A DNA stretch of 64,000 nt from Xanthomarina spongicola (GTDB taxonomy: Bacteria > Bacteroidota > Bacteroidia > Flavobacteriales > Flavobacteriaceae): NCBI RefSeq assembly GCF_003148645.1, contig NZ_QGGP01000004.1:186001-250000 (forward strand). The letters are read 5' to 3'. A model generated the notes under the pieces. It saw only the letters and a program-made list of their open reading frames with translations, was not told the origin of the DNA and made no database searches. Below, in pieces: positions 2,908 through 8,418 of this stretch. The number at the start of each line of letters is the position of its first letter. Positions within the stretch are counted from its first letter, which is position 1. The translations under genes were made by a program, and so were the position numbers.

Positions 2908-3083
2908 ATTTATTTAATCTTCATAACCGATATATTTTTCGTTTTAACGAAAAGTCTTTTTAAAAAACCTTCTTCTTATATAAATTCATTAATTTTAACT
3001 TAAGATTCTTCCTCATAAAATAAAAATTATTTTTTCGATTAATAGCTACAAACGAAAAAATTAAAATTATGTATTTATTTTTT

Positions 3084-6000
3084 ATGAAAAAATTTAATTA
3101 TGCAATTTCTTTATTAGCAGTTATATCCTTTTTTAGTTTATCAATCGACTTAACATCTCAAACTATAAGTTTCGGATCTTCTGGTTTAATTGATGCCAAC
3201 GTTTTAAATCCAACATCATTAGATTTTGGACCAGATGGCAGACTCTATGTTTCGCAACAAAATGGTGTTATTTGGGCTTTTACTATTGAAAGAGATCTCG
3301 CTCCACAAGGTAGTGGGACGTACAATGTTATAAACTCTGAACAGATAACTAACATCCGGTTAGGTATTCCAAACCATACAGATTCAGGTCTTTTTAATCC
3401 AAGTCAACAAAGGTTAATTACTGGTATAATGACGGCTGGAACTTCACTAAACCCAGTTCTTTATGTAACCTCCTCCGACTATCTAATTGGTGGTGGTGGT
3501 TCTGGTAGCGACACAAATTTAGATACTAATTCAAGTATGATTTCAAAATTAACTTGGAATGGTAGTAGTTGGGAAAAAATAGACCTAATACGTGGTTTAC
3601 CACGATGTGAAGAAAATCATGCAATTAATGGCATGGATATGTTTGAACGTGATGGGTCAACTTTTCTTCTAGTTGCTCAAGGTGGGCAAACAAATAAAGG
3701 AGCTCCTAGTAATAACTTTGCTGGTACTCCAGAATATTTTCTTTCTGCAGCAATTTTAATTGTAAATTTAACTCAATTAGAGAGCATGCCTGTATATACA
3801 GATTTGCGTTCTGGAACAGAATTTATATATGATTTGCCGACATTAAATGACCCTTCAAGAATTGATATTAATAACACACATCCTGAATTCCCTTATGAAG
3901 TTGGGCATCCTTTATATAACTCAACAATTGACTTAGGTGATCCTTTTGGTGGAAACAACAGTTTAAATCAAGCATTTCCTGAAGTTGGTGGACCTATTCA
4001 AATTTTTTCTCCAGGCTATCGTAATGCTTACGACGTTGTAATTTCTGAAGGAGGTAAAATCTACAGTTCAGATAATGGCCCTAATGGTCAATGGGGAGGT
4101 TTTCCAAAAATTTATGACAAAGCAACAGATGTATTTTTAGGAGATGAAAAAACTATTACCTATGACCCAGTAAACCATTACATTACAAATGAATTTAATG
4201 AAAATGGATCAAATTTACATGGCGATCCTTTACATTATATTGGTTTAACTACTGATGCAAATGGTACATATTATGGTGGGCACCCAAATCCTATATTAGC
4301 TTTTCCATCCAGAGCAAAAGTAAATGTATATGAAGACACTGGTTCAACATGGTCACTTATAGAATCGCATGACCTTGTAGATCTTTTACCTGGTGTATCT
4401 GGTTATTTTAATACATCATTTACAATTGGTGATTTCCCAGAACAATCTAGACTTGGTGAATACTTACTAGATGAGCCCATTGCTAGCACAAAAAATAATA
4501 TACTTGATGTTGTGAGTTCATCTACTAATGGAATTACTGAATATACAGCTTCAAATTTTGGTGGCATAATGCAAGGTAATATCTTAACCGCATCCTTTAA
4601 TGGAGATATAAATAGATATAAGCTAAACCCAACAGGAGATTCTGTTTTAGAACACGAAGCAACCTTTCAAGGTTTTGGAAGTATTCCGTTAGATGTTATT
4701 GCACAAGGAGATAATGATATTTTTCCAGGAACAGTTTGGGCTGCTACTTATGGCTCTAGCAACGTAACCGTTTTTGAACCATCAGACATTAGTTGCTTAC
4801 AACCTGGAGATGTAGGTTATGATGCCAATGCAGATAATGATGGTGATGGATTTACAAATCAAGATGAGTTAGATAATGGAACCAATATATGTTCTCAAAG
4901 TAGTAAACCAACTGATAATGATGGCGACTTTATTTCTGATCTAAACGATCCAGATGATGACAACGACTTTATTCTTGATGTTAATGATGCTTTTGCAATA
5001 GATCCTAATAATGGTTCAACAACCAATCTTCCCATATTATATCCTTTTTGGAATAATGACCCAGGAACTGGTATGTTTGGTTTAGGGTTTACTGGACTTA
5101 TGTTGGACCCTTCGGGTAACACAGACTATTTAGATCAATTTGACACTGATGATATGTCTTTTGGTGGTGCTGCTGGGAAAGCGACCGTAGATCAAGTTAC
5201 TGGTGGAGATGCCTTTGGAAACTTAAATACACAAGATTATGGTTTTCAATTTGGTATTAATGTAGACAGTAATTCTAATCCATTTACAATTCATTCTAAA
5301 GTAGAATCACCATATTTTGGTTCAGGAGGTTCACAACAAACTCCTGTAGATTTTCAATCATATGGCATTAGTTTCGGAAATGGAGATCAAGATAATTACT
5401 TAAAAATTGTAATTATGAATGGTGTTCTCAATAATGATGCAAATTATGGTTTGCAAGTTTTATTAGAAGATGGAGGTGTTGTTACAAGCGATACTAAATA
5501 TGATGTTCCAAATATTTTAAATTCTAGTTCGTTAGATCTTTATGCATCTATTGATCCGGCAACAAACACAGTACAACCTTTTTATTCTATAGACGATGGT
5601 CAAACTTTAAATTTATTAGGGTCTCCAATTACATTACCTGCTAGTTTTTTAGATGATTCTGACAATAAAGGATTGGCAGTTAGTTTAATTTCAACTGCTA
5701 GAACGGCTTCTACACCAAACTCTTTTACCGCTACTTGGGATTTTATTAAAGTGTACGAAAATCTGGATGGTGTTTTATCTGTAATACCAGATGTGTTAGA
5801 CTTTGGCTTAACACCTGATATTAATTCGCAACGTACTAAACTCGTTACGATTAATAATGATGGAGGACCTACAGATAGCGCAATTACTGTAACTGGTTTT
5901 AACTTTACTGGTACAGATGCATCCTTATTTTCAAGCGATGTTACATTTCCTTTCGACATTAACCCTGGTACTTCAGTTATTGTACCAATAGATTTTGATT

Positions 6001-7640
6001 CAGATCAAATTATTGGAACTAAAAATGGTGTTTTAAATATTGTTCATTCTGGAAATAACTCACCATTAGCTTTACCTCTTATTGGTGAAATAACAGATAT
6101 TTTTACTCCTATTGTAAGAATAAATGCTGGAGGTACTGCAGTAACTGCATCAGATGGAGGCCCAGAATGGGAAGACAATACAGCATTTGTTGGACCTTCC
6201 TATATTTTATCTTCAGGCTCTCCATATTCTCTTACAGGTATGAACTACAATTTAAGAGACGAATCTATTCCAGATTATATCTCTTCAACAGAATATATTG
6301 AAGTAATGCGCATCCAACGAGGAAATAGCAATGAAGAATTTCCTATGATTTTTACAGTACCTCTTCCAAATGGAGAATATATTGTGAATCTATACATAGC
6401 TAATTTATACAATGGAACTTCTGAGCCAGGCGAACGTGTTATGGATATTAACATTGAAGGCCAAAGAAGAAGAAGTGACTTTGACCCATCTGCTGAATTT
6501 GGGCATAGAATTGCAGGTATGCTACAATTCAATGTTACTTTAACTGATGGAAATTTACAAATGCATATCGCAACTAATATCCAAAATCCAATAATAAATG
6601 CTATTGAAATATTAGGTCTAAAATATTCAGAACTTGAAATACAACCAATAGCTGACCAAACAAATTGTGAATTAGAAATTTCAGATTTTTCAGCTATAGC
6701 TTCTGGTGGAAATCCTGCCGATAATTTAACCTTTGAAATTACTGGTCAGCCAACAGGCATAGATATTGAACCAACAAACGGTTTGATTTTTGGAGTTATT
6801 GATGAAACATCTGTAACTGGAGGTCCAAACAACGATGGTGTTTTCCAAGTAACAGTTACTGTATCTAAACCTGGTAGTTTAGATACTTCAACTAATTTTC
6901 AATGGACTGTTCTAGACGATACTGAAGCACCAGTAATTACTTGTCCAACAAATATTATAGAAAATGTTTCAGTTGGAACTACCGAAACGAACATAATTAT
7001 TATAGAACCAACAGCTACAGATAACTGTTCTAATACATTAACTTATTTAGGTATTAGATCTGATGCATTAGCATTAACCGATCCATATCCACTAGGTGAC
7101 ACATCTATTACTTGGACAGTGACTGATGCTTCTAATAACACGTCTTCATCCTGTATACAAAACATAAGTGTGGTTATCCCTGAATTTAATTTAGATTTAA
7201 GCGTGAGCCTTCAAGGACGAGTAGATTTTAGTGGAACATATTCTGTTATTTTATACGATTTAAATGATTTAATAACACCTGCTTATAGTTTCTCTGAAAC
7301 TAGTGATAATTTAGGGAATCTCTCATTAAGTTCAACAATAAGCCAGAGCAATTATAAAGTTCTTGTAAAACATCCTATGTATTTACAAAGAGTAATTACT
7401 ATTAATTTAACTGCAAATGCTTCAGAAACTATTACAGAACTTTTAGCTGGTGATGCAAATAACGATAATCTTGTAAATATTTTAGATTTTGGAATTCTAT
7501 CTGGCTCTTTTGGCTTAACTTCTTCAGATTCAGGCTATAATAGCTCTGCAGATTTTGATGGTAACGAAGTTATTAATATATTGGACTTTGGATTATTATC
7601 AGGTAATTTTTCAACCATTGGAGAAACACAAAACAATTAA
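3084..7640 (+). CDS. Large exported multidomain protein: sugar-dehydrogenase-like propeller, LamG-like, malectin, HYR and C-terminal dockerin
   Basis: A protein of about 1,518 residues. I start it at ATG 3084 (MKKFNYAISL...), which gives a clean signal peptide; ATG 3069 adds five residues. Residues ~30-560 resemble a PQQ-dependent glucose/sorbosone dehydrogenase beta-propeller (LDFGPDGRLYVSQQNG). Then come two Asp-rich calcium-binding stretches (584-598, 611-636), a LamG/concanavalin-like region (~640-890), a choice-of-anchor D-like Ig domain (~896-1003), malectin (~1010-1181), a putative Ig-like module, a HYR domain (~1281-1366), a pre-dockerin beta module, and two dockerin EF-hand-like repeats (~1456-1511; GDANNDNLVNILDFG and SADFDGNEVINILDFG). 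There is no T9SS tail. Its substrate is probably a glycan, but catalysis is not shown. The next gene starts 10 bases downstream and encodes a cohesin-like partner. Confidence 0.85.
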   Translation: MKKFNYAISLLAVISFFSLSIDLTSQTISFGSSGLIDANVLNPTSLDFGPDGRLYVSQQNGVIWAFTIERDLAPQGSGTYNVINSEQITNIRLGIPNHTDSGLFNPSQQRLITGIMTAGTSLNPVLYVTSSDYLIGGGGSGSDTNLDTNSSMISKLTWNGSSWEKIDLIRGLPRCEENHAINGMDMFERDGSTFLLVAQGGQTNKGAPSNNFAGTPEYFLSAAILIVNLTQLESMPVYTDLRSGTEFIYDLPTLNDPSRIDINNTHPEFPYEVGHPLYNSTIDLGDPFGGNNSLNQAFPEVGGPIQIFSPGYRNAYDVVISEGGKIYSSDNGPNGQWGGFPKIYDKATDVFLGDEKTITYDPVNHYITNEFNENGSNLHGDPLHYIGLTTDANGTYYGGHPNPILAFPSRAKVNVYEDTGSTWSLIESHDLVDLLPGVSGYFNTSFTIGDFPEQSRLGEYLLDEPIASTKNNILDVVSSSTNGITEYTASNFGGIMQGNILTASFNGDINRYKLNPTGDSVLEHEATFQGFGSIPLDVIAQGDNDIFPGTVWAATYGSSNVTVFEPSDISCLQPGDVGYDANADNDGDGFTNQDELDNGTNICSQSSKPTDNDGDFISDLNDPDDDNDFILDVNDAFAIDPNNGSTTNLPILYPFWNNDPGTGMFGLGFTGLMLDPSGNTDYLDQFDTDDMSFGGAAGKATVDQVTGGDAFGNLNTQDYGFQFGINVDSNSNPFTIHSKVESPYFGSGGSQQTPVDFQSYGISFGNGDQDNYLKIVIMNGVLNNDANYGLQVLLEDGGVVTSDTKYDVPNILNSSSLDLYASIDPATNTVQPFYSIDDGQTLNLLGSPITLPASFLDDSDNKGLAVSLISTARTASTPNSFTATWDFIKVYENLDGVLSVIPDVLDFGLTPDINSQRTKLVTINNDGGPTDSAITVTGFNFTGTDASLFSSDVTFPFDINPGTSVIVPIDFDSDQIIGTKNGVLNIVHSGNNSPLALPLIGEITDIFTPIVRINAGGTAVTASDGGPEWEDNTAFVGPSYILSSGSPYSLTGMNYNLRDESIPDYISSTEYIEVMRIQRGNSNEEFPMIFTVPLPNGEYIVNLYIANLYNGTSEPGERVMDINIEGQRRRSDFDPSAEFGHRIAGMLQFNVTLTDGNLQMHIATNIQNPIINAIEILGLKYSELEIQPIADQTNCELEISDFSAIASGGNPADNLTFEITGQPTGIDIEPTNGLIFGVIDETSVTGGPNNDGVFQVTVTVSKPGSLDTSTNFQWTVLDDTEAPVITCPTNIIENVSVGTTETNIIIIEPTATDNCSNTLTYLGIRSDALALTDPYPLGDTSITWTVTDASNNTSSSCIQNISVVIPEFNLDLSVSLQGRVDFSGTYSVILYDLNDLITPAYSFSETSDNLGNLSLSSTISQSNYKVLVKHPMYLQRVITINLTANASETITELLAGDANNDNLVNILDFGILSGSFGLTSSDSGYNSSADFDGNEVINILDFGLLSGNFSTIGETQNN

Positions 7641-7650
7641 TATATATATT

Positions 7651-8418
7651 ATGAAAACAATTACTTATAAATGGAAGTTATTAATAGCAACATTTAGTTT
7701 AATTTTTTACTCCAGTATGAGTTTAGGGCAAGTAGACTTAATTGCTAGTGTTAACGACGCTAATCCACCATTAAGCAATGGTCAAAATTTCACTTATGAA
7801 CTGGTAGCAGTAGCAAGTTCAAATTATAGAGGTGTTCAGGTTACTCTAGATTATGACCCATCTCTTATTCAAGCAGTTAGTTTAACACCTGTCTATAATT
7901 TTCAAGTAGAATTAGCAAATAATATAGACAATGGGAATGGTGTAATAGAGTATGCTGGAGGGGATTTTTCTGGAAATATTAGTGGCACTGAAACTATTTT
8001 TACAATTGTATTTAATGTCATAGATAACAGTTCAACCATTTCAATAATGCATGATTTTAGTGGAGCTCTTGGTACAGCAGTCACTAATGCAGCCGGACAA
8101 AATGTTTTAGGAGCAACAAATTCAATAGTTTTTGAAACATTAAATATTTCAAATGAAGATTTTAAGAGCAATATTTCTATTTATCCTAATCCAGTAAAAG
8201 GTAATTTAAATATAACAACTAATCATACATCAGAAATAAATGAGATTCGTTTATATACTATAGATGGGAAGCTTGTATTTATTGATAAAGATATTAAAAT
8301 GACAAACAATCATTTAAATATTGACACTTTAAGCACATTAACTAACGGATTATATTTAATGACTCTTACTTCTGTGTCTGGAGAAAAGGCAACATATAAA
8401 GTGGTTATAGATCATTGA
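7651..8418 (+). CDS. Cohesin-like domain protein with type IX secretion sorting domain
   Basis: A 255-residue protein starting at ATG 7651; the longer frame from 7555 runs inside the preceding gene and is rejected. It has an N-terminal signal peptide ending near SMSLGQ. Residues ~27-165 have the pattern of a cohesin fold: SNGQNFTYELVA, then GVQVTLDYDPSLIQAV, then a GTETIFTIVFNV strand. Residues ~172-255 are a T9SS C-terminal sorting domain (SIYPNPVKGNLNIT, then IRLYTIDGKLV, NGLYLMTL). It is probably exported through Sec and then T9SS and fixed on the cell surface. The gene before it ends in a dockerin and the two are 10 bases apart, so they are probably co-transcribed partners. The cohesin call rests on fold-pattern reading, not on a search. 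Confidence 0.78.
   Translation: MKTITYKWKLLIATFSLIFYSSMSLGQVDLIASVNDANPPLSNGQNFTYELVAVASSNYRGVQVTLDYDPSLIQAVSLTPVYNFQVELANNIDNGNGVIEYAGGDFSGNISGTETIFTIVFNVIDNSSTISIMHDFSGALGTAVTNAAGQNVLGATNSIVFETLNISNEDFKSNISIYPNPVKGNLNITTNHTSEINEIRLYTIDGKLVFIDKDIKMTNNHLNIDTLSTLTNGLYLMTLTSVSGEKATYKVVIDH

Follow-up and report, generated by a model that had tools for sequence, protein, structure and literature searches.

Two genes in tandem on the forward strand of a 64,000-nucleotide stretch of the Xanthomarina spongicola genome (contig NZ_QGGP01000004.1, positions 186,001 to 250,000; hereafter the window) probably encode a private cohesin/X-dockerin pair, by which a large exoprotein devoid of a sorting tail is given, in trans, the tail of the type IX secretion system (T9SS) that its small partner carries. 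The first gene (3084..7640, with an alternative start at 3069) encodes a protein of 1518 amino acids (aa) and was characterized from the open reading frame listing, Pfam, NCBIfam and a PDB sequence search. Its stop codon is separated by 10 bases (7641..7650, forward strand) from the ATG of the second gene (7651..8418), a spacing of 6–12 bases being found across the 16 close pairs compared. The 255-aa product of the second gene consists of a signal peptide (read by eye), a cohesin domain and a T9SS type A C-terminal sorting domain, the latter two both over their Pfam cut-offs, just as an earlier note made from the sequence of the window had described it.

The exoprotein also begins with a signal peptide read by eye, followed in order by a propeller-like N-terminal region, Malectin (55 bits), He_PIG, HYR (42.4 bits), an X-module and a dockerin; "propeller" is used here as shorthand for an N-terminal region that has sub-cut-off Pfam matches only, to GSDH (13.9 bits) and SSL_N. 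The dockerin lies at the extreme C-terminus (7446..7637, forward strand), where Dockerin_1 (PF00404) matches residues 1455–1506 of 1518 with 20.9 bits for the whole protein (cut-off 22.9) and 28.1 bits in a six-frame search. The earlier note was right to place a dockerin here, but what it took for two dockerin-type repeats is a single dockerin with two EF-hand loops (DANNDNLVNILD and DFDGNEVINILD), both of which are intact in all 15 close pairs. Ahead of the dockerin is an X-module of Ig-like strands (7176..7445, forward strand; about residues 1365–1454), in which the motifs LQGR and K..YLQ are kept among relatives; residues 1419–1511 align with the X-dockerin chain 2b59_B (E 0.0015, PDB sequence search). 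Since the X-module precedes the dockerin, the two together (X-Doc) are the likely binding unit, as in type II complexes. The same note had called the protein glycan-acting, for which Malectin, HYR and the sub-cut-off GSDH match are the basis; Pfam shows no glycoside hydrolase domain. For the exoprotein itself, Pfam and NCBIfam return no T9SS tail, whatever the type; a tail of its own was therefore set aside, which upholds what had been said of it.

In the small partner the cohesin module (7729..8145, forward strand) spans about residues 27–165, with a Pfam match to PF00963 at 46–135 that scores 26.1 bits against a cut-off of 24.1 (28.3 bits in the six-frame search). A chance domain match was ruled out: a hidden Markov model (HMM) built solely from the distant partners of the giant exoproteins described below recovers the window's cohesin (E 2e-10), and the predicted fold agrees. 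The Por_Secre_tail domain (8179..8415, forward strand; residues 177–253) matches both PF18962 (E 1.2e-12) and TIGR04183 (E 3e-11), and the genome encodes SprA (TIGR04189, 2815 bits), the only T9SS component searched for.

The pair stands alone in its own genome. Throughout the 3.16 Mb, PF00963 has a single match (at E up to 10), beside the dockerin gene, and PF00404 has a single match over cut-off, beside the cohesin gene, a further match of 12.9 bits lying elsewhere within a 2007-aa frame; an X-Doc profile likewise finds one X-Doc at E up to 0.001. A role in a true cellulosome, whose other cohesins or dockerins would be encoded elsewhere in the genome, would suit the fact that these are the cohesin and dockerin families of cellulosomes, and that one relative has two cohesins in a single protein (L029); however, one cohesin match, one X-Doc and no glycoside hydrolase domain on the X-Doc protein leave it very improbable, and it was rejected, as there is neither a multi-cohesin scaffoldin nor a set of several dockerin enzymes. 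Across 14 genomes the same profile finds X-Doc in 12, as a single copy in ten of them; Mangrovimonas aestuarii (G098) has two X-Docs, each beside a cohesin gene and so with two cohesin genes, and Muriicola (G231) also has two.

To model the pair, X-Doc and cohesin were joined by reading the intervening stop codon as a residue, with about 30 residues of linker and signal peptide kept, and the resulting construct of 323 residues (halves of about 155 and 140) was folded by AlphaFold (AF2) with a 32-row alignment. The model has a mean predicted local distance difference test score (pLDDT) of 89.1 and a predicted template modeling score (pTM) of 0.79, and the sole segment with pLDDT below 50 is residues 156–182. 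By our own estimate a pTM near 0.5 would be expected if the halves were only internally correct; the higher value therefore speaks for confident relative placement of the two, and the X-Doc/cohesin arrangement is confidently predicted, in line with the pairing that had been proposed. The top Foldseek matches in the PDB include 5k39_A and both chains (_A and _B) of the type II complexes 4wi0, 2b59, 5g5d and 5m0y. For the type II fold of X-module plus dockerin the target-based TM-score (TMt) is 0.77 to 5g5d_B and 0.74 to 2b59_B, and for the cohesin beta-sandwich, whose AF2 strands lie within residues 186–319, it is 0.70 to the cohesin chain 1g1k_A (all being whole-model matches). The cohesin assignment has both HMM and structural matches behind it, and specific docking of the cohesin with the neighboring X-dockerin is predicted and very likely. 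A mirror-tree comparison of X-Doc and cohesin distances (r 0.80 over 15 pairs, with 0 of 5000 permutations as high) was set aside and is not used as evidence, because shared descent gives such a correlation too.

To follow the conservation of the pair, the X-Doc alignment was run against 84,980 species, each represented by a single genome, and the best 80 of 88 relatives fell at 76 loci. Neighbors were inspected at 25 of these; the remaining 51 belong to other phyla, often lie on short contigs, and were covered by general scans only. At all 12 close loci (L088–L099), which include the genera Xanthomarina, Mangrovimonas, Hanstruepera, Lacinutrix and Oceanihabitans among others, the X-Doc protein ends with the dockerin and the gene that follows encodes a cohesin with a T9SS tail. 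A second architecture is found in Robiginitalea, Pricia, Muriicola and two other Flavobacteriaceae (L100–L102, L106, L109, L110), where, in six of six cases, a protein with a C-terminal T9SS tail is encoded first and a giant exoprotein with a C-terminal X-Doc directly after it. Judged by coordinates, this tailed protein begins with a cohesin, which is over the Pfam cut-off in G289, G304 and G306 and under it in G307; an HMM built from these four detects the cohesin in the partners of G191 (E 6.8e-28) and G231 (E 1e-37).

Farther afield, a cohesin lies beside or inside the X-Doc gene in a Saprospiraceae metagenome-assembled genome (MAG), Neolewinella, Botryobacter and a Catalimonadaceae genome, and in MAGs labelled Anaerolineaceae and Pleurocapsa (L103, L104, L105, L108, L111, L120), so that the neighborhood is not peculiar to Flavobacteriaceae. 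A T9SS tail on the cohesin protein was observed solely in Bacteroidota, and not in all of them (none was seen at L108, and L105 is cut off). Locus L103 (6321-16354), in a MAG labelled Pleurocapsa minor, a label that may be wrong, has three X-Doc genes in succession with a cohesin on either side. The Saprospiraceae MAG (G309) has 20 Pfam cohesin matches and Botryobacter ruber (G311) has 10, possibly true scaffoldins in Bacteroidota.

The connection with sorting comes from how the exoprotein family ends. Among 299 family genomes, 31 contain the propeller region, with 48 matches in all, and so do 4 of 8 genomes of the genus; the 48 family matches and two further ones from the genus make up a table of 50 distinct exoprotein genes, in which a truncated second entry for a tail-ending gene of G108 was not counted again. 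With a T9SS-tail HMM built from 11 Pfam-confirmed tails, their C-termini comprise 10 X-Docs, 21 T9SS tails, 2 copies of a second-type module (see below), 10 ends cut off and 7 others, the last being assembly gaps, a frame break, or tail-like ends under cut-off. X-Doc and T9SS tail are mutually exclusive among the 31 exoproteins that have either end. A gene encoding cohesin plus tail lies within 600 bases of 10/10 X-Doc-ending exoproteins versus 1/21 tail-ending ones (Fisher p 2.5e-7, relatedness ignored and 19 genes left out, namely the 2 second-type, the 10 cut by contig or locus ends and the 7 others). The X-Doc partners in G191 and G231 were initially picked by eye and served to seed the cohesin model, and an HMM made without them then confirmed both; with both disregarded, the counts are 8 of 10 versus 1 of 21. 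The single tail-ending exception is in G098: after two X-Doc/cohesin pairs this genome has a third paralogue (L026 11827-15657), in which Malectin is succeeded by a T9SS tail of its own at the place where the other two carry X-Doc. This either/or distribution suggests that a family member either has the tail in cis or obtains it in trans, and, on the strength of these gene arrangements, supply of the T9SS tail to the exoprotein in trans by its cohesin partner appears likely. The expectation that the two genes would be neighbors in other Flavobacteriaceae has held at the 12 close loci and for all ten X-Doc-ending exoproteins.

A different role for the cohesin protein would be that of an assembly partner (chaperone, stabilizer or oligomerization factor), the cohesin–dockerin bond then not being for sorting. 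Cohesin genes that adjoin X-Doc genes with no visible T9SS tail at L103 and L104, both labelled as other phyla, would suit such a role, but at 12/12 close loci the T9SS tail is at the end of the cohesin protein and not of the X-Doc protein, and none of the 31 exoproteins combines X-Doc with a tail; we therefore regard an assembly partner as distinctly unlikely. The pair is real and conserved, and it apparently serves T9SS sorting.

As to mechanism, both proteins would cross the inner membrane by Sec, and the X-Doc of the exoprotein and the cohesin would join in the periplasm in the calcium-bound state. The docked complex would then pass through SprA by virtue of the type A tail on the cohesin protein. 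In the available part of PMC10994853 this tail is the part held by SprA and by PorV, carrier of the translocon. The tail would then be processed and the cohesin fixed to the surface, with the exoprotein held there by the non-covalent cohesin–dockerin bond. According to the accessible portion of PMC9251779, T9SS transports folded and very large proteins; as systems in which a protein travels on the signal of its partner, that portion describes peroxisomes and, in the form of complexes, Tat, but not T9SS.

The exoprotein might alternatively leave the cell by some other route (an unknown exporter, vesicles or lysis) and be caught afterwards by the T9SS-anchored cohesin. Classical cellulosomes do assemble outside the cell, and the cohesin protein has a complete T9SS tail of its own, both of which fit such capture; however, the exoprotein has no export signal beyond its signal peptide that Pfam or NCBIfam recognizes, and 21 members of its family without X-Doc carry a T9SS tail themselves, from which it follows that the family normally uses T9SS. 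Capture after export therefore seems rather unlikely. Because the exoprotein shows no recognizable signal for outer-membrane export, docking in the periplasm and piggyback export as a complex is mildly favored over capture outside. Accordingly, of the display device for a tail-less protein that the earlier note had proposed, the display itself is still the best inference, strengthened by the relatives in which a T9SS tail replaces X-Doc, while capture by an already anchored cohesin is not favored.

Several observations weigh against supply of the tail in trans by a dedicated partner. The pTM of 0.79 is a single-chain score on linked modules, read without the predicted aligned error or interface coordinates, and the only comparison fusion (the second pair type below, pTM 0.42) had a thinner alignment and a different pair and is not a matched control. 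Pfam finds no cohesin in two genomes with the giant architecture, G305 (L101) and G308; in Muriicola (G308 in the Pfam search, and also G231) the cohesin is recovered by the HMM from Pfam-matched relatives, as it is in G191. Outside Bacteroidota, at L103 and L104, a cohesin adjoins X-Doc without any T9SS tail, so the pair did not arise for T9SS. Muriicola has at L107 an X-Doc without a neighboring cohesin, no cohesin or T9SS-tail gene being recognized within this 20-kb locus, and G255 has a T9SS protein with two tandem cohesins (L029:9109-10287) away from its only X-Doc; pairing is thus not one-to-one everywhere. The orphan X-Doc is on a 928-aa protein (L107:7652-10435) with a CAYCH motif, seen by eye.

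Type II cohesin–dockerin pairs have an anchoring role. Those of clostridial cellulosomes (2b59, 5g5d, 4wi0, 5m0y) likewise combine an X-module, a dockerin with two EF-loops and a cohesin, but their anchor is an S-layer homology domain and their cargo a scaffoldin or cellulase, whereas here the anchor is a T9SS tail, there is one cohesin per dockerin, and the cargo is a Malectin/HYR exoprotein. Cohesin- and dockerin-like modules that are not cellulosomal are reportedly the subject of Peer et al. 2009, to go by its title, and some of the present ones may be among them. Compared with ordinary T9SS type A cargo (Por_Secre_tail, TIGR04183), the small partner likewise ends in a type A tail, and the exoprotein has none.

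The closest likeness is in Candidatus Stygibacter (Cloacimonadota), for which the available part of PMC8542988 infers from the genome a 3,755-aa scaffoldin-like protein with tandem cohesins and a C-terminal domain (CTD) for surface attachment, as well as dockerin proteins; a cohesin protein anchored in such a way has thus already been proposed. That protein, however, is a multi-cohesin scaffoldin for several enzymes, cellulosome-like, and the same part of the source reports neither gene adjacency nor an exchange of tail and dockerin. Pfam dockerins are also reported, in the accessible text of PMC10266427, from Alistipes, Bacteroides and Bacteroidales single-cell genomes. In the accessible, mostly open-access literature on cohesins and T9SS, neither a one-to-one adjacent pair nor an exchange of tail for dockerin is described. 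Cohesin–dockerin pairs are known, as is a scaffoldin bearing a T9SS-type tail; the new element, within this literature, is the one-to-one, tail-exchanging arrangement. Because T9SS cargo is recognized by a C-terminal tail in the protein itself, proteins that borrow a neighbor's tail would be missed by tail-based surveys. If the arrangement functions as proposed, T9SS would move docked two-protein complexes, which offers a direct test of the limits on cargo size and foldedness, and a natural cohesin/dockerin display handle would exist in marine Bacteroidota.

A second pair type may follow the same logic. Its tail-less proteins end in a module that comes behind a conserved domain and consists of a duplicated GD-N...RYxGPxND segment. 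Pfam gives no match to this module in any of three proteins searched, and sub-cut-off Dockerin_1 matches (18.8–20.0 bits) overlap or adjoin it in three other genomes. A profile search finds the module in 30/299 family genomes; at the best locus of each, the module gene is followed immediately, and in the same orientation, by a small T9SS-tailed gene in 21 of the 30, the module protein itself has the tail in 2, and neither is the case in 7. The tailed partners (loci L164–L195) are of 259–320 aa, with no Pfam match in the ectodomain of the two tested. Such a pair is present in the source genome itself, at about 91.6 kb on C4 (L172), outside the window. An AF2 model of a pair from the same genus (G038) has a pLDDT of 55.6 and a pTM of 0.42, with the dockerin-like half not modeled, and Foldseek returns nothing for it at E 0.001 or better; the best matches, at E about 0.01, are to the cohesin-like modules 2jh2 and 2vo8 and do not suffice to name a fold, so that the partner ectodomain looks weakly cohesin-like in this model. 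The second pair type is accordingly a lead and not an established second cohesin system.

Five genomes (G079, G096, G179, G195 and G277) have from 7 to at least 10 matches to the second-type (RYxG) module each, possibly a multi-client display system. With the X-dockerin/cohesin pair and the second type, at least two pair types would exist, and we tentatively suggest, at somewhat below even confidence, that T9SS tails are widely supplied in trans in Flavobacteriaceae by tailed adaptors. Were this so, T9SS would export non-covalent complexes, and the genomes with 7 to at least 10 clients would display a repertoire via shared adaptors, a decentralized counterpart of the cellulosome.

Upstream of the tandem gene pair in the window lies a secA-like gene (recognized by eye), and at the same locus beside secA in G107 and G261, the latter of the window's genus, the second-type module replaces X-Doc. 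In G107 the gene after that of the module protein encodes 259 aa, in which the T9SS tail is the sole Pfam domain; G261 has no tailed gene after it, nor any match to the G107 partner in its genome. In G168 a small protein with several copies of an FPGNDW motif is encoded between the secA-like and exoprotein genes (L045:1980-2750).

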